DNA of 62,020 bases, from IMG/VR virus record IMGVR_UViG_3300032073_000028, positions 1 to 62,020 of that record; one strand, 5' to 3'. The position numbers and the translations under genes were made by a program. Numbering within the stretch: the stretch's first letter is position 1; the number at the start of each line of letters is the position of its first letter. Below, one piece after another: positions 6,053 through 54,885 of this stretch. Below the pieces are notes generated by a model, which did not search any database, had not been told where the DNA came from, and saw nothing but the letters and a program-made list of their open reading frames with translations. Source of the DNA: a virus.

Positions 6053-9000
6053 CATTTGAAAATCCTTTTTCTTTCTTAATTTCAACTAAATCATCTACAA
6101 CATCTCGCATTGAATCAATATGAGATATTACCATAACGAAATCAAACTGAGTTTTAAGGTATGTGAACAACATAAATAAAGATTGTAGGTTCTCACTATC
6201 TAAAGTACCAAATCCTTCATCTATTACAAGGAAATTAGGTCTAGGAAGATTACATACATTAATAAGTGCAACTCGAATTGCTAATCCACTAATGAATCTT
6301 TCCATTCCACTACACATTTCTAAACTCCATCTCTGGTCTCCATACACTAAATAGGCATTAATGTTTTTACCATCGATTTCTAACTGCATTCCAAATTCTA
6401 CGATTTGTCCTAATATATTGTTTACCTCACCTTCTAACATTGGAAGTGCCTTTTCTATCAGTTCATAGGATACACCATCTCTACTTAAAGCATTTAAATA
6501 GAAATCATATAGTTTACTCTGTGCTTCTAAGTTTTTTACTTCTTGTATTCTATCTTCTATAATTTCTTTTTGATTCTGAAGTGCAGATATTTTACCATTT
6601 AATTGTAATATATCTTTGTTATTATTTTTTATATCTTGTTTTATAACATCCCACTCAGAACGAACATTTACTATCTCATCTCTTATTTCTTTGTTCTTTT
6701 TAATTTGTTTTTCGTTCTTATAATATTCTTTAACAAGTTGCTCTTGTTGACCAAATTGTGTAATATACTTGTATTCTTCAGTTTCGGTTGTTGATAACTT
6801 GTTGATAAGTCCACTCAACTCTCTATCTATCTTATCTTCTTTTTCTTGAGCTTCTTTAAAGTTTTTCCATTCTTTTTCATAACCTTTTAAAGAATCTATT
6901 TCAACATTTATATCTAACTTTTCTTTTCGTAATGACTGTAATTCTGATTCCTTTTCTTGTATTTCAGATTCAACTTTTTCTTTTGTATCTAGTATAGATT
7001 TAGAGTTTTCCATACAAACATCACATTCTTCGTTGTATTTATGAGAATCTAAATGGTCTTTTCTATCGTACAAAGATTCTAATTTTATATTTACTTTTTC
7101 GATATCAGATTCTACATCAGATAATTTTATCTTTTTTATCTTTAAAATACCAATACTATTTTCTAATACTTCTTCATCAAATTTATCAAGTATTTCTTCT
7201 AATTCAAGTTGTAGTTCTTCTCTATGACTAATTCTATCTTGAATAGAATCTTTTTGTTTTGTTGTATCATCCTTTTTCTTTTCTAGGATTCTTAATCTTT
7301 TTTCTAACTCTTCAATCGATACACCACTATCTGCGTTTAGGTTAACAATCTTCTCATTTAACTTGATTATTTGCTTATTAAGTTTTTCTTCTTCTTTCTT
7401 ACATTTATCTTGTTGTATCTCTAATAACTTGTAGGCAGATTTCTCCCCCTTTAACTTTGTATCGATTTCGGCCAATTTCGTCGTAAAATCGTCAGACTTA
7501 AACTTTCTGATAAGTGTTGCATTATCTCTGTTTTGTTCACTTGCTTGTTGATATAATTTATCAAAGATATCTACTCCAATAAATTGAGAAAGAGTTTCTT
7601 TTCTTTCGGATTGTGATTTATCAATAAATAAAGCATTGTTACCTTGTAGTGAAAGAGTAGTTAATACAAAATCCTCAAACTTACCTAAATACTTTTCAAT
7701 GTTCTTATTTGTTTCTCTTCGTTGTTCACCATTAAGTGATTCAAGTACTCCTGCATCTTCTTTCCAAAAGTTAACATCAACTTTAAGATTAGTTCCTCTT
7801 CGTGTCCATTTAGCAGTTCTTTCAATAAAGTATTGTATTCCATCTATTTCAAAGTTAAACTTACAATAGAATTTATCCTTACGATTATTAAGAATATTTT
7901 TAGATGATGTAGTACGAGATGTTTTATCGTAAATACAAAAACATAGTGCATCAAATAAAGATGATTTACCACTTGCGTTTGGAGCAAAGATTCCTATGAT
8001 ACCTTGTGCCTTATCGAATCTTACCTTATTATCTTCACCATACGAGAACATATTAGAAAAATGAAATTCTTTTGGTGTCCATAATATATTACCAGCAGAA
8101 TCTGAATCATCTATTCGTGAGTTTAATTCTGTATTTATTTCTTGAATACTATCAAGTTCTTCTGAATCTAATAGATATTGTCTTTCTAAATAATCTCTGA
8201 TAAGTTGGTTTTGGAAGGTTTCATCCTTGACATTACCAACAATATTTTTATTTATTTTTTGATTTGTTTTAAGTTGTCCGATTGTATCGGTTCTTGTTAC
8301 AGTAACCTCTTGAACCTTAAATAATTTTTTTAACTCGGTGATACATCGTTTCATATCACTAGCCTCAGTTTTTGTAAACCTTAATCGTAATCTTGGATGT
8401 TTAGGTAGTTTTGTACCTATCTCATCGTAAACCCATTGTGGTATCTTTCCTTTTACTACATCAACAGTTAAGAATCCATAATCATTATGAAGATGGTGTT
8501 CAGTAAATGTTCGTGTTGGAATATCCCAAAGTAAGTATCCATGATTTTCTAGTAACTCTCCATGATTTTGTTGAATCATAGAACCAGCATAAGCTATATG
8601 TTCGTATCCTTTACCAAATGTTTGTCTTTTGTGAATATCACCCAACATGGCCATATCGAATCCATCAAACATATCCACTTGGAATGAGTTAGAAGAAACG
8701 GTATAGCCGATATCTGTTTGAGCTTTGTTTACTGGTCCATGAAATAGACAGATTGTATTTTCTCCATCAATGGTATCTCCCTTAGGCCAATTTTCCTTGT
8801 TATCCAATATAGAATAGACAACGAAATTAAGATTATGAATAGGGTAAACACCAGTGTCACGAAGATAATGAATTCTATCATTTCCAAGATTTTTGATAAT
8901 AGGCGTAAGTACATCTAGTCTGTGGGAATTATTTAAATTACAATCGTGGTTACCTGTGATTAATACAGTTTCTCTTAACTTCGCACACTCTGTGAGAAAC

Positions 9001-32940: not shown

Positions 32941-34677
32941 CTATATGTTCTCAGAAAGTATTTTTTTAGAAAGAAATAAATTACCAAGAACTAAATAATC
33001 CATATCACACTTCATAAATGTATCAATTGCTTCTTGTGAATCTTTAACCATTGTCTGGTCTTTAAGATTGAATGAAGTATTTAGAAGTATTGGATAGTTA
33101 GTTATACTTTTAAATTCATTTAGTAATCTGTATATTCTTGGATTAGAATCATACTTTAAAGTTTGTACTCTAGCAGAACCATCGGTGTGGGTAATTGCTG
33201 GTAACTTTTCTCTGTGTTCCTTTTTTACTTTTACAATCTGATTCATGTATGGAATATAATATGGTGGAGTAAAGTATTTTGTTCTATCTTCAAATGTTAC
33301 CATAGGTGCAAATGGTCTGAATCCTTCTCTTTTCTTTACAACCATATTTACTCGTTTCTTCATTTGAGAATCTCTTGGGTCTGCCAAGATAGAACGATTA
33401 CCTAATGCCCTTGCACCAAACTCTAACTTACCTTGTACCCACCCTATGATATTACCTTCAGAAATAAGTTTGGATATTTTTCTAAATAAGGTTGAATCTG
33501 GTATAACTTCCCAAACTATTTTATCTTGATTTTTTCTACATACTTTAATAAATTCTTGATTGTTTTCTTCTGGTCCTAAAAATGGTGATTGATTATCTAT
33601 CTCATACCACTTATCTTTTGATTGTGTAAAATAGTAGTGTAGTGCTGCACCAATTGCAGAACCAGCATCAGATGGAGCAGATGGTATCCAAACATTTTCG
33701 AATTTACTTTTTTCTTGTATCTTACCATTTGCAGTTCCATTGTAAGCACAACCACCACTTAAACAAAGATTTATTTCTTTTGTTTCTTTTTGTAAATGGT
33801 TTAATAAATGAAAAAGTATTTTTTCATATGCATGCTGCAGTGCTGCTGCTATATTTTTATGTTTATTTGTTATTCTTTCGTTTGGTAATCTATTTGGTAT
33901 TTCTAATAACTCTGATAATTTATGATTGAACATAACTTTATCTGAATACTCGTATGTAAAGTATTTCATATTTAATTCAAACCCACCATCATCAGTTAGT
34001 GTATAAAGTTTATCAAACTTTTTATGATAAAATACTTCAGTACCATATGGTGCTAATCCCATAACCTTATACTCACCTTCATTTGGTTTGAATCCAAGAA
34101 ATGCTGTGATTGTGGAATATAACATTCCTAGTGAATGTGGAAACTTAATAGATTTAATTGGTTTCTGTTTGTTTCCATCAAAAGATGTAAGTGTGGTTGT
34201 TTCGTATTCACCAACACCATCTACTGTAAGAACTGCTGAGTTTTTGAATGGGGATGTAAAATATGAATATGCTTTATGAGAATCGTGGTGATTACCATAA
34301 ACTATATTTACATTAGGATGTACATATTGTTTAAATAAATTATCTATATCGTTATTTGGATTACGATGTTTCCATAGCAGTTTTAAATTACCTATTGGAT
34401 TTTTAAAAAAAGTTTTTCTTGCAATATCAAGTATTCTTTTTCTTTTTTCCTTTGGATTCTCATAGTAACATACTGTACTAATATCTGTATTGTGGAGTTT
34501 ATTATTTTGTAATATCCACTTTATTGATTGTATTGGAAAAGTACTATCGTGTTTTATACCACTAAATCTTTCTTCTTCAACTGCTGAAATAACCTTTCCA
34601 TTCTGAACTAAACATACAGCCGAATCATGAAATCCAAACGAAACTCCTAATATGTATTTATCCTTTCCAAAACTCAT
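32941..34677 (-). CDS. NodU/CmcH-type carbamoyltransferase
   Basis: About 578 residues. The N-terminal HSP70-like domain has LGVSFGFHDSAVCLVQNG and EEERFSGIKHD; the C-terminal YrdC-like domain region has LSGGCAYNGTANGKI and GWVQGKLEFGARALGNRSIL. This family transfers a carbamoyl group from carbamoyl phosphate via carbamoyl-AMP to hydroxyls of sugars, antibiotics or, in some phages, modified nucleobases. I prefer ATG 34677 (MSFGKDKY) over a GTG 21 nt upstream; it then overlaps the sigma-factor gene by 20 nt. The gene ends with a double stop, TAG TAA. Acceptor unknown here. Confidence 0.85.
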   Translation of the reverse strand: MSFGKDKYILGVSFGFHDSAVCLVQNGKVISAVEEERFSGIKHDSTFPIQSIKWILQNNKLHNTDISTVCYYENPKEKRKRILDIARKTFFKNPIGNLKLLWKHRNPNNDIDNLFKQYVHPNVNIVYGNHHDSHKAYSYFTSPFKNSAVLTVDGVGEYETTTLTSFDGNKQKPIKSIKFPHSLGMLYSTITAFLGFKPNEGEYKVMGLAPYGTEVFYHKKFDKLYTLTDDGGFELNMKYFTYEYSDKVMFNHKLSELLEIPNRLPNERITNKHKNIAAALQHAYEKILFHLLNHLQKETKEINLCLSGGCAYNGTANGKIQEKSKFENVWIPSAPSDAGSAIGAALHYYFTQSKDKWYEIDNQSPFLGPEENNQEFIKVCRKNQDKIVWEVIPDSTLFRKISKLISEGNIIGWVQGKLEFGARALGNRSILADPRDSQMKKRVNMVVKKREGFRPFAPMVTFEDRTKYFTPPYYIPYMNQIVKVKKEHREKLPAITHTDGSARVQTLKYDSNPRIYRLLNEFKSITNYPILLNTSFNLKDQTMVKDSQEAIDTFMKCDMDYLVLGNLFLSKKILSENI

Positions 34678-35377
34678 TATTCTCTGTTGTAAATTCACCT
34701 GATTCTAGGTATTCATTTAGTATTTTCTTTTGATGTTGTTTCATTATGTTTACAACTTTAGTAATGTAGTGTGTTTTAACATCTGTCATTTCTCTTATCA
34801 AAAGATATAAATGTTTTTTATTAAAGTTTTCAATGTGTTCTGCTCTTCTAAATAATTCTAATACAGCATCTGCAATCTGTATATCTCTTTTCTTTGCAAA
34901 GATTTTAGTTAAATTAACATCCCAATACTTTAACATCAGATTTTTAAACTGTTTCATTTCATTGTTTTCCTGCTCATGATAAAAATCATTTTCTGGATTC
35001 CAAGTTACTGGCATTTCAGATATTAATGAATTTTGTTTCCATCTTTTGTAGTTACCATTATTTTTTAGAATCAAATGGTTCTTTGCAATAATTGTAAAAT
35101 AAGAAAACGCCTTACCTTTACCTTCTTTAAACATATGTATTTTTTCTACCATAGTAGAAACTACTTCTGTTTGAATATCAATTTTTGGAACATCAAAGTA
35201 AGTAAACTTAAATGTATTCAAAACATTTTCTGCAAGTTTTTCAAAAGGATATTTGATTCTTGTTTTATATATTTCGTTTCTTATTGCTGGATTTTTCTCT
35301 TTGTTGTATTCTATGATTGCCTCTTGTGCAGGTGTACCAAAATACATTTTCGATTTTTTTCTTCTTTTTTTAGGCAT
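34658..35377 (-). CDS. Late transcription sigma factor, T4 gp55-like
   Basis: 239 residues, basic N-terminus (MPKKRRKKSKMYFGTPAQE). The sigma region 2-like core is FEKLAENVLNTFKF...VVSTMVEKIHMF followed by GKAFSYFTIIAKNHLILKNN, as in the small phage late sigma factors that recognise an 8-bp TATA-like box without a -35 element. It lacks a clear region 4, as expected for gp55. It lies in an operon driven by the host-type promoter at 36254-36285, so the late regulator would be made early. The candidate target is the ATATTTATA motif. Confidence 0.8.
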   Translation of the reverse strand: MPKKRRKKSKMYFGTPAQEAIIEYNKEKNPAIRNEIYKTRIKYPFEKLAENVLNTFKFTYFDVPKIDIQTEVVSTMVEKIHMFKEGKGKAFSYFTIIAKNHLILKNNGNYKRWKQNSLISEMPVTWNPENDFYHEQENNEMKQFKNLMLKYWDVNLTKIFAKKRDIQIADAVLELFRRAEHIENFNKKHLYLLIREMTDVKTHYITKVVNIMKQHQKKILNEYLESGEFTTENNEFWKG

Positions 35378-48747: not shown

Positions 48748-51099
48748 TTATTTGTTGTGTACGATGATTCCATTAGCAACATATGAATGTAATCTATCTA
48801 CTGTTATATTATAAACTTTTTCTTTTGCATCAGAACGAACTATTCTAATATCTTCTATCTCTTTCCATTCAGAGTCTATACATATACTATCTCCTACTTG
48901 AAGTATCTTTGGTTGTTTGTTTGATAGATAAGGTTCTTGGTTCTTATCTGGTACTAATGATTTCCATCCATCTTTCGTTAAGAATGGATGTTCTGGTGTA
49001 AACTCAATACCAGTGTTATCTATTGTATATAGTGATGGTTCATCACCTAATAGTTTACAAGCATCTGCATGAGAGCCAACAAAATGTGAATCATCAGTTG
49101 CAATTACTTCAGCTGAATCTATCTTTCTTCCATCCCATCCTAGTACTTCATCACCTACAACTATATCTTCTATATTTTTAACATCGCCATTTGATAAGGA
49201 TATATGTGTACCTGCTGCAAAACAAGTTTGAGGTACACCACCTGGTGGCATTCTGTTATGTGCCAAGAAATCTTCTACAAAGAAGTTATTGTTACCATCA
49301 ACTTCATCTAGGTTATAAACTGTTGTTGTATCTTCTTGTTCTATTATATCTGTAATAGCAACTCCATATCCATCAAGGTGTAATACTTCATCTCCTATTA
49401 AAATTTGTTCTACATCAATACCACTATCTTCTTTTGTTTGATTAGGGTAATAAGATGAGTATCCTTTTCCACATACAAATAAAGGGTGGTCTGGAGTACC
49501 TGTTAATTCAGTTCCATTTTCAAATACATACTTTACAACATTTTCATTTGATTTGATTCTAATCTTTTTAACTTCTTTATATTCTGAAGTATCGTTATCG
49601 TGATTATATGATATTACTTTATCACCTACCTTTACATCTTCTATGTTTGTAATACCTTTAGATTCTACATGAATCTTACTACCAGCAATAAAACATGGTG
49701 CGTTGTGTACAATAAATGGTGATGATGATGATACGAAATATGTATCAGTATCTTCCACATCGACTCTGTAAAATTTATGTGTATCTATATCACCTGTTAC
49801 AAATATGTTAGATTGTGATATCGATAATAAATCTCCATCCTTATCTATAAGGTAATCATCAGAAGCTGTTATCCAATACGCTGATTTAAATTTAATCTCA
49901 TTTGATTGTGTATTGTATGTTAATAAGTTTTTATTTGATGATACATATATTTCTTCACCAGTTCCTAGTGTTAGTTCGATACCAGTACCATACCAAAGTG
50001 ATGATGATGATAGTGTATCAACAACAGATGATGTTACTATTGAATTATCTGGTAAATCTCTACCATCTTGTGACCAAGATGAAAATACATCGTAATCATC
50101 TGTATCTGGTGAACCACTTAAGAAGAATGATTTAATTGTATCTCCCGTTGATATATCTCCTATTCCAACAAAAGTATTATCTACCTTTTGAATGTTTTCA
50201 GATGATAATATAGCATCTTGTACTAATGGGTTATGTTTTACAAAGTTCGTTGTATATTCAAAGTAATGTTTTATTGGTACATCAACTACTGCAGTGTTTG
50301 ATGATAGTGAAGATATGTTTGGTATATCATACATTGCATCAATCTTATAACTACCTAAACTTACATAGTTTATTTCACTTCCATAAAGAATACCAAATTG
50401 TCTAATTGCTTGTACCTTTCCATTTGAAATTTGAGTTGGGTTAGTATGATATTTTTCTATATATCTATCACTTCTATCTAAATAGTTAAAGAAGTAATCA
50501 TCGGTAATATCTGTTGATGATGAATCTGCAGTTCCTACGAATTTGTGAAATGTTATTGGGGAGTGTCTTTCAGATGAATCTTTTTCTACTATATCTGGAA
50601 AAGTATCACTTGCGTTTACAGATGAAGAAAATGTGTTTCCTTCCCATGCACTACCACTATATCTAAATTCTGGTACAGATGATTCGTTATCGTTATCTTT
50701 AAATATCTTTAGAACTTCTATTCTTTGTTTACAATATGTACTATCAAATATAGCGTTTTCATCATATGCCAATCTTAAGATAAATCTATCTGATTCATCT
50801 GTTACATTTGTTGGATATATTGTGTTTCTATCTTCTTCTATTTTAACTATCTCACTTATAAATGTGGCATCGTTACCGATTACTGAAGTTAGTTTTTCAA
50901 TAAAGTTTCTATGAAATACTTTATAAACAACTGTTAGTTTTGTAATGTTGTTGCTTTGCAATAAAGATATAAACGCTGTAAAATCTAAACGATTATTTAA
51001 TATATCGTTTATCATTGCAGTGTCTGTATTGAACTCTAATAGTCTTAACTTATTAGATTCATCAATAATAAAATCACTTGAAAATAAAGTACCTTTCAT
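48748..51099 (-). CDS. Virion-type protein with tandem self-processing Hint domains
   Basis: 783 residues. The N-terminal part (about 1-370) includes NKLRLLEFNTDTAM and RFILRLAYDENAI, a pattern seen in marine phage proteins with an ATP-grasp-like look. The C-terminus carries Hint modules: Hint 1 from C469 (CFIAGSKIHV) with TPDHPLF to HN614-615, a 10-residue linker, and Hint 2 from C626 (CFAAGTHISL) with TPEHPFLT to HN781-782, then one Lys and the stop. Just before Hint 1, DTDTYFVSSSSPFIVHN looks like the end of a third, degenerate Hint (about 375-466). Such domains cleave or transfer peptides at Cys and at HN. None has a Cys/Ser/Thr after HN, so splicing is unlikely and cleavage more likely. 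Confidence 0.85.
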   Translation of the reverse strand: MKGTLFSSDFIIDESNKLRLLEFNTDTAMINDILNNRLDFTAFISLLQSNNITKLTVVYKVFHRNFIEKLTSVIGNDATFISEIVKIEEDRNTIYPTNVTDESDRFILRLAYDENAIFDSTYCKQRIEVLKIFKDNDNESSVPEFRYSGSAWEGNTFSSSVNASDTFPDIVEKDSSERHSPITFHKFVGTADSSSTDITDDYFFNYLDRSDRYIEKYHTNPTQISNGKVQAIRQFGILYGSEINYVSLGSYKIDAMYDIPNISSLSSNTAVVDVPIKHYFEYTTNFVKHNPLVQDAILSSENIQKVDNTFVGIGDISTGDTIKSFFLSGSPDTDDYDVFSSWSQDGRDLPDNSIVTSSVVDTLSSSSLWYGTGIELTLGTGEEIYVSSNKNLLTYNTQSNEIKFKSAYWITASDDYLIDKDGDLLSISQSNIFVTGDIDTHKFYRVDVEDTDTYFVSSSSPFIVHNAPCFIAGSKIHVESKGITNIEDVKVGDKVISYNHDNDTSEYKEVKKIRIKSNENVVKYVFENGTELTGTPDHPLFVCGKGYSSYYPNQTKEDSGIDVEQILIGDEVLHLDGYGVAITDIIEQEDTTTVYNLDEVDGNNNFFVEDFLAHNRMPPGGVPQTCFAAGTHISLSNGDVKNIEDIVVGDEVLGWDGRKIDSAEVIATDDSHFVGSHADACKLLGDEPSLYTIDNTGIEFTPEHPFLTKDGWKSLVPDKNQEPYLSNKQPKILQVGDSICIDSEWKEIEDIRIVRSDAKEKVYNITVDRLHSYVANGIIVHNK

Positions 51100-53648: not shown

Positions 53649-54107
53649 TTATATTATACTAACTTCATCGTACCATTGAACATTAACTCCAGCCTCATCA
53701 AACATTTCTAAGCTTCTTTCGGCTGAATCTAACCACTTCTGAGATTTTGCTCCTCTTGAATATCTAGTTACAAATATTCGTTCAATCCCAGCGTTTATAA
53801 TACCTCTTGCACAATCAGCACAAGGTACTCCACAAGTTAAATACATAGTACATCCCTTAGTGGATACGCCAATACGAGCAGCATTATAAATTGCATTTCG
53901 TTCAGCGTGTTCGAACCAGTAATACTTTTCTGGCTTCTCTTGTCTCTTAGGTTTGTTATCATTTATTCCTCTTGGGAAAGAATTGTAACCTGTTGAAACA
54001 ATCTCTTTATCTTTACCAACAATAACCGCACCAATCTGTGTACGCTCATCTTTGGATTTTTCTTTTACCTTTTCGGCTATATTTCTAAAATATTCAACCC
54101 AGCTCAT
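53649..54107 (-). CDS. dCMP deaminase
   Basis: 152 residues. The zinc site HAE (67-69) and PCADC (95-99) is intact, and the sequence around GAVIVGKDKEIVSTGYNSFP is typical of the T4 cd-type enzyme. It converts dCMP to dUMP, feeding thymidylate synthase at 39859-40677. Starts in the ATGA of the 2OG oxygenase stop. Confidence 0.93.
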   Translation of the reverse strand: MSWVEYFRNIAEKVKEKSKDERTQIGAVIVGKDKEIVSTGYNSFPRGINDNKPKRQEKPEKYYWFEHAERNAIYNAARIGVSTKGCTMYLTCGVPCADCARGIINAGIERIFVTRYSRGAKSQKWLDSAERSLEMFDEAGVNVQWYDEVSII

Positions 54108-54682
54108 AACACTGTCTTTTTTATTTCAAATGATTCATGTGGTAGCCACATTACTAATACATATCGTGTACCTGAAATTAGTGGGTGAACTTGATGATAC
54201 AATCGTGAGTCGAACATTACCGCATTACCTCTTTGTTTACTTATTTTAGTTTCGTTATTGTTCGTATCCCAAACAGATAAATCACCACCTTCGTATTCAT
54301 CTTCATTAGATAGTTGTATTAGTATGGTTCTATATCTCCACTCTGTTCCTTTTGAACCCCTATCTTGGTGTCTTTTAAACTTACCACCTTTTGTGTATTT
54401 TAAAATTGAAGCTATGTTTTTTGATTTATCGTAATCTAATTCTTCTTGGTATCTAAACTTTTGAGTTTGTATTATTTTCTTAACTCCAAACTGTTTTAAG
54501 TTTTCTGTTATAAAAGAATCTTTAGGTATTAAAACTTGTCTTTGTGTAGATATTCTAAATGGATTTATACTATGTAGTTCTTGGTCTATACTGTTGACAG
54601 TTTTACTTTCAAACCATCTACCTCCTTCAAGATTCATAATTTGTTCACATTCTTTATCAGTAAATAATCTCTTTTCTATCAT
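54104..54682 (-). CDS. 2OG-Fe(II) dioxygenase
   Basis: 192 residues from ATG 54682 (MIEKRLFTDKECEQIM), preferred because it overlaps the upstream stop as ATGATAG. Iron site HQD (105-107) in FKRHQDRG, EGGDLSVWD, and the distal YHQVHPLISGTRYVL with 2OG Arg 173. Hydroxylase or demethylase of unknown substrate. It is a longer type than the 11447-11902 gene. Confidence 0.85.
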   Translation of the reverse strand: MIEKRLFTDKECEQIMNLEGGRWFESKTVNSIDQELHSINPFRISTQRQVLIPKDSFITENLKQFGVKKIIQTQKFRYQEELDYDKSKNIASILKYTKGGKFKRHQDRGSKGTEWRYRTILIQLSNEDEYEGGDLSVWDTNNNETKISKQRGNAVMFDSRLYHQVHPLISGTRYVLVMWLPHESFEIKKTVL

Positions 54683-54885
54683 ACCATTTCCCAATCTATA
54701 TCTTCTATCATTTCGCAGAACCAATATGTTCCACTTGAATGTTGTGTAAATACAGTATCTACTCCTAACCATTCTTTTACCATCCTTACATCCTTTACTC
54801 TATCCATAGGATATTCTGCATGAATTACATACAATCTACCATTTATGTTTTGTACTGGTCTCTTGAATGATGGGTATCTACTCAT
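54679..54885 (-). CDS. Small hypothetical protein (68 aa)
   Basis: MSRYPSFKRPVQNINGRLYV..., mixed alpha/beta, with DRVKDVRMVKEWLG. It overlaps the upstream small membrane gene by 8 nt and the oxygenase by ATGA. No family. Confidence 0.6.
   Translation of the reverse strand: MSRYPSFKRPVQNINGRLYVIHAEYPMDRVKDVRMVKEWLGVDTVFTQHSSGTYWFCEMIEDIDWEMV

Follow-up and report, generated by a model that had tools for sequence, protein, structure and literature searches.

Gene organization and family

A gene on the minus strand of the window (the whole 62,020-nucleotide stretch that was analysed, from IMG/VR virus record IMGVR_UViG_3300032073_000028) encodes a protein of 783 residues in which an ATP-grasp-like body is followed by Hint domains in tandem. 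Its parts, and a conserved neighbouring gene, are as follows.

48748-51099, minus strand: whole gene, 783 residues, made up of the ATP-grasp-like body, Hint1, Hint2, Hint3 and a lysine (ORF translation, full-length relatives)
50245-51099, minus strand: ATP-grasp-like body of YgiC/YjfC/glutathione-synthetase type, residues 1-285 (AF2, Foldseek, alignment, motif)
49702-50214, minus strand: Hint1, residues 296-466 (start approximate), with A296 at the Cys1 position and D452, H465 and N466 retained (profile-profile comparison, AF2, Foldseek)
49696-49701, minus strand: Ala-Pro separator between N466 and C469, residues 467-468 (0-12 residues across relatives)
49255-49695, minus strand: Hint2, residues 469-615, complete, with C469, TPDH and H614-N615 (Pfam, Foldseek, family alignment)
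49225-49254, minus strand: linker RMPPGGVPQT, residues 616-625 (close relatives conserve the first basic residue only)
48754-49224, minus strand: Hint3, residues 626-782, complete, with C626, TPEH, H771 and H781-N782 (Pfam, Foldseek, family alignment)
48751-48753, minus strand: lone Lys783 after Asn782, then the stop (ORF translation)
54104-54772, minus strand: 2OG-Fe(II) oxygenase gene, conserved neighbour of the Hint-tailed family (Pfam, neighbourhood counts)

The preliminary description of this DNA had placed two full Hints at C469-HN615 and C626-HN782, with a 10-residue linker between them and one residue left before the stop, and the ORF and its residues agree: the linker is RMPPGGVPQT and the last residue K783. 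The Hint domains are 133-167 residues long and have no space for a homing endonuclease; an intein bearing one was ruled out because the domains are too small.

The protein belongs to a family that is widespread among uncultured phages of aquatic origin. About 60 distinct relatives that share the body were found in uncultured phages of IMG/VR, by scans with the protein or with alignments of its relatives and by a DNA pattern for HN-K-stop; 53 representatives differ at <88% identity in the N-terminal half. No relative was found when GenBank phages were searched with the body, nor in a search of GTDB genomes. The contigs that bear the gene are metagenomic and include large ones, up to 326 kb. After hand correction of four misparsed rows, the 53 representatives divide into 18 with two Hints, 31 with three and four with four.

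Hint domains of the tail

The Hint identity of the tail domains is well beyond chance. Hint2 and Hint3 match Intein_splicing (6.4e-15), Hint (1.5e-11), Hom_end_hint (7.8e-11) and PT-HINT (1.1e-9) of Pfam, all above cut-off. By profile the closest solved relatives are the Clostridium thermocellum BIL domain (2lwy, 2.6e-21) and Tetrahymena BIL2 (7e-21); by fold (Foldseek on AF2 models) the full Hints match BIL2, the gp41-1 intein and others with TM 0.83-0.94 of the target. The horseshoe Hint fold is predicted by AF2 and Foldseek for Hint1, Hint2 and Hint3. Tandem domains of self-processing type had been proposed beforehand, with any other predicted fold named as the result that would speak against them, and the Pfam, profile and fold matches bear the proposal out. 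Block A Cys1 and block B T-x-x-H are present in Hint2 and Hint3 and absent from Hint1. Across the family, 82 of the 88 full Hints that were parsed carry T-x-x-H. The block G terminal His-Asn is kept in all three domains and is missing only from the terminal domain of one group of relatives.

A further Pfam match to the Hints, at 48748-49695 of the window, is the AXH family (PF08517, ataxin-1/HBP1) at 2.6e-23. A profile built from seven phage Hints also reaches ataxin-1 chains in the PDB; this match (5.5e-13) spans Hint positions 2-106. These matches suggest that AXH is a truncated form of the Hint domain, and no statement of this was found in the open-access texts searched.

The first Hint had been described as a third, degenerate HN end. 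The HN end does stand before Hint2; what precedes it is a whole Hint domain, at residues ~296-466. A profile of the 53 relatives in this region matches the 84 other tail Hints with a probability of 97.4 (E 1.1e-11); the control, for which the N-terminal region was used, scores 0.1. An AF2 model of residues 1-466 built with the 53 sequences has a mean pLDDT of 88.9, and its Hint1 finds Tetrahymena BIL2 (TM 0.78 of target), inteins and Hedgehog by Foldseek. The N-terminal half of Hint1 is easy to miss because Cys1 and T-x-x-H have been lost. In the 53 representatives the Cys1 position holds Gly in 49, Ala in three, Ser in one and Cys in none, and T-x-x-H is not conserved. Asn466 is retained in 53/53, the block-F Asp452 in 52/53 and His465 in 50/53, against a domain mean of 44%; these counts were repeated on sequences not truncated at HN, so as not to select for HN. 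Lacking Cys1 and T-x-x-H, Hint1 would be unable to form the N-terminal thioester. Since the residues for Asn cyclisation are retained, it is proposed as a natural domain for C-terminal cleavage only, acting much as the laboratory C1A intein does.

The opposite loss occurs at the other end of the tail. In seven relatives (L108, L113, L114, L117, L119, L145 and L149) the terminal Hint has Cys1 and no HN, the mirror image of Hint1, and, except in L149, the end of this domain contains VSGLGDNELLN. By its sequence motifs the family thus holds Hints with C-terminal chemistry only, Hints with both halves and, apparently, Hints with the N-terminal half only. The tree of full Hints largely separates first from last positions into different clades. 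In L029 and L094 the last Hint is 99.3% identical, against 44% for the body and 35% for the first full Hint; as read from such sequence comparison, proteins of the family have swapped their terminal Hints, and modules have also been gained and lost. The domain tree and this exchange ruled out that Hint3 arose from Hint2 by a recent tandem duplication.

Junctions and linkers

Hint2 opens with Cys-Phe in 53/53 representatives. The separator between Asn466 and this Cys ranges from 0 residues (10 members, with HN/C) up to 12 and its sequence is not conserved; since Asn and Cys are each present in 53/53 beside such variable separators, the chemistry of the junction is fixed and the intervening peptide is not. 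A functional role for a linker peptide as product was ruled out because the linkers differ in both length and sequence.

The full Hints follow a further rule. Lys or Arg stands at +1 or +2 in 77/77 parsed full-Hint junctions versus 0/53 Hint1 junctions, counts that come from relatives with shared ancestry, for which a Fisher test gives no fair probability; one exception, the YSHNQF junction of L129, lies outside the 77. The +1 residue after a full Hint is Lys or Arg itself, or is aromatic or aliphatic with the basic residue next. The 783-residue protein has A after Hint1, R after Hint2 and K after Hint3, and a four-Hint relative, L071, has junctions HN/SP/C, HN/RA/C, HN/KA/C and HN/K-stop. An end one residue before the stop had been called odd in the preliminary description. 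It is the usual one, for HN-K-stop is found in 37/53 relatives (eight more have HN-K or HN-R plus a few residues) and recurs on unrelated phage proteins. Six further Hint proteins of the same phage genomes, selected without bias for Lys, end their Hints with HNK in five cases and HNAK in one. A cut at the final HN/K would remove only one residue, so the conservation of this ending needs another reason. The Lys/Arg rule makes a sharp prediction on the role of the residue after Asn.

N-terminal body

The body is matched by Foldseek at probability 1.00 to YjfC and YgiC of E. coli, a glutathione-synthetase-like effector and homoglutathione synthetase (targets 7uk6, 7uk8, 7uka, 5oet and 3kal), with E-values of 1.6e-6 to 4e-4 and modest TM; the query TM is 0.31 and the rmsd about 8 A. 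The AF2 model of the body had a pLDDT of 56 with 6 sequences and became good once 53 sequences were used. Sequence profiles gave chance matches only and no ATP-grasp family, and ten phage records compared with the GSP_synth profile (PF03738) gave no hit at E<=10.

The invariant residues of the body are D9, E22, N24, K60, R109, E114, D119, K173, K186 and R233. In the same place where YgiC has R-x-D...E-x-N-A-D-T the phage family has S-x-D...E-x-N-T-D-T; the Arg of R-x-D is replaced by an invariant Ser7, and D9, E22 and N24 of this motif are invariant. Cp1B, which is related to YgiC/YjfC, requires R139, D141, E163 and N165 (PMC12568646). YgiC and YjfC carry an annotation as peptide-spermidine ligases, for which a passage of the same paper cites a reference. 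From fold and motif the body resembles an ATP-grasp ligase, with putative catalytic activity.

Genomic neighbourhood and other Hint proteins

The Hint-tailed gene does not lie within a tail gene cluster; its surroundings are of metabolic type. This and the ligase-like body go against an earlier suggestion that the product is a virion protein, and a virion or tail role was rejected because neither PHROG and Pfam comparisons nor the fold of the body supported it. A 2OG-Fe(II) oxygenase gene lies <=5 kb from the family gene in 10/10 genomes and <=2 kb in 8/10, where 0.8 would be expected from random placement (P 6e-8, with relatedness ignored). It is upstream in some genomes and downstream in others, and the linkage is seen in the window (54104-54772) and in G003-G009 and G015-G017. 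Other recurring neighbours, mostly named by eye, resemble genes for a sulfotransferase, a NodU-type carbamoyltransferase, a nucleotidyltransferase and PhoH. A gene of one such type, a Nol-like carbamoyltransferase (phrog_1601, 7e-117), occupies 32941-34698 of the window.

Hint domains are found on other proteins of these phages as well. Many unrelated proteins (L035-L069; with fibronectin III, FPPFFP-rich and others) bear a terminal Hint and VHNK-stop, an ending that the search pattern demanded. In L029 the next gene downstream of the family gene (8457-8942) encodes a stand-alone degenerate Hint-like protein of 161 residues that, by eye, has neither Cys1 nor HN, and a 166-residue ORF corresponding to about one complete Hint lies a few kb downstream of another family gene (L079, G005:C1:49188-49688). 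Large genomes of the group have a second Hint protein (L019, L080-L082, L183-L187), often with the Hint in mid-protein followed by HNKGG or HNKGT; that of L019 adjoins a tail-sheath-like gene.

Interpretation of the Hint tail

It is moderately probable that the protein is a phage ATP-grasp ligase-like enzyme with a self-processing Hint tail, of which Hint1 would perform C-terminal cleavage only. Cyclisation of Asn466 would cut the chain after Hint1 and free the enzyme, with Hint1 attached, from the rest of the tail. Hint2 would cut at Cys469 and Asn615 and Hint3 at Cys626 and Asn782, and the unconserved linkers would be discarded as waste. Cleavage in such an order may mature or relocate the enzyme. 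Serial cleavage with loss of the linkers had already been suggested, and it fits the fixed Asn and Cys beside unconserved linkers. Proline at -1 usually hinders the N-S shift, and the -1 residue of Hint2 is Pro in members with AP/C and SP/C, which counts against the self-processing reading. Release of an Ala-Pro diketopiperazine, which is only an idea, would free the N-terminal Cys of Hint2; this fits the AP and SP separators and HN/C, not the longer separators.

The basic residues at the junctions could also suit a tail that attaches the enzyme rather than releasing it. A thioester at Cys469 or Cys626 would be handed on to an amine, which could be the +1 Lys, a lysine in some other protein or a polyamine, and the enzyme would thereby become tethered to a target. 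The contrast of 77/77 with 0/53 favours such conjugation, as do the likeness of the body to amine-using amide ligases and a nearest solved fold, BIL2, with a reported Lys isopeptide bond (PMC8616854). It is nonetheless rather unlikely, for Arg, which is no acyl acceptor, prevails at internal junctions, and Hint1 separates the enzyme from the earliest site at which a thioester could form. By analogy with BIL2 one may further imagine half-active and fully active Hints in series as a machine that attaches an amide-ligase enzyme to amines: Asn cyclisation in Hint1 would expose or free a junction, and the basic residue of the full Hints, with Lys as acceptor, would yield an isopeptide bond without ATP. 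Such a device is quite unlikely. Splicing of the A-type BIL kind, in which Hint2 (and Hint3) is excised and the short flanks joined without a +1 nucleophile, has in its favour that every other splicing residue is present, that by sequence the C. thermocellum BIL domain matches best, and that BIL domains splice without a C'-flanking nucleophile according to Dassa et al. 2004 as cited in a review (PMC7765530). The spliced product would be near pointless because the C-flank of Hint3 is one residue and the flanks are conserved neither in sequence nor in length, and this course is very unlikely. The preliminary description had thought splicing unlikely from the +1 residues Ala, Arg and Lys; the residues are correct, and the argument drawn from them is weakened by that citation on nucleophile-free splicing and by the BIL2 isopeptide bond.

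Use of the Hints as non-catalytic folding or binding modules, repeated for structural reasons, is unlikely. Degenerate domains exist (Hint1 and the stand-alone L029 neighbour), the terminal Hint lacks HN in one clade, and AXH offers a Hint-like fold usable as a binding domain; against these stand Asn in 53/53 and Cys in 53/53 beside unconserved separators, and T-x-x-H in 82/88, which argue for retained chemistry. That selfish inteins have accumulated in one gene is scarcely credible, even though intein profiles match and terminal modules swap between proteins: the domains leave no homing endonuclease room, lie at the C-terminus and not inside a conserved extein, and have no +1 nucleophile, and the last has no C-extein.

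An ATP-grasp ligase-like body with 2-4 tandem Hints appears to be a new architecture; no mention of it was found in the open-access literature searched, which is weak evidence. In this family the N-terminal and the C-terminal reaction of the Hint were each lost on their own, at different positions; this natural series lets the coupling of the steps be studied with no need for engineered mutants. The combination of Hints with a ligase-like body is directly testable in the laboratory.

Comparison with known systems

Inteins are defined by a +1 Cys, Ser or Thr and a rejoined extein; the +1 residues here are others, and Hint3 has no C-extein. The Hedgehog C-terminal autoprocessing domain (1at0) is likewise a C-terminal Hint on a protein open to release and transfer, and its transfer to cholesterol is a parallel for conjugation. 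The phage protein differs in its conserved terminal Asn and tandem array, and the sterol-recognition region of Hog is absent, since the chain stops one residue past Hint3. With YgiC/YjfC and the glutathione and homoglutathione synthetases the body shares the fold found by Foldseek and the D...E-x-N-x-D-T motif at its start. Compared with YgiC it is missing about 90 N-terminal residues and has S-x-D for R-x-D; it also differs from this type in having no sequence-level match and in being fused to Hints.

The closest solved fold for both Hint1 and the full Hints is BIL2 of Tetrahymena BUBL1 (6y75, 6tmm). There, too, a BIL domain lies within a polyprotein, and the BIL2 thioester is reportedly transferred to a Lys side chain as acyl acceptor, with formation of an isopeptide bond in what was described as a dispensing platform (PMC8616854). 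In contrast to this ciliate system, the phage protein belongs to a prokaryotic virus, has an ATP-grasp-like enzyme as its flank, and has no ubiquitin-like domain detectable by Pfam. The A-type BIL domain of C. thermocellum (2lwy) has the Hint fold, Cys1, T-x-x-H, terminal His-Asn and non-nucleophilic +1 residue in common with the phage Hints, along with an exchangeable position at variable protein ends and no endonuclease. The phage family differs from it in placing 2-4 Hints in tandem behind an ATP-grasp-like body, with the first Hint always Cys-less and Lys or Arg after each full Hint.
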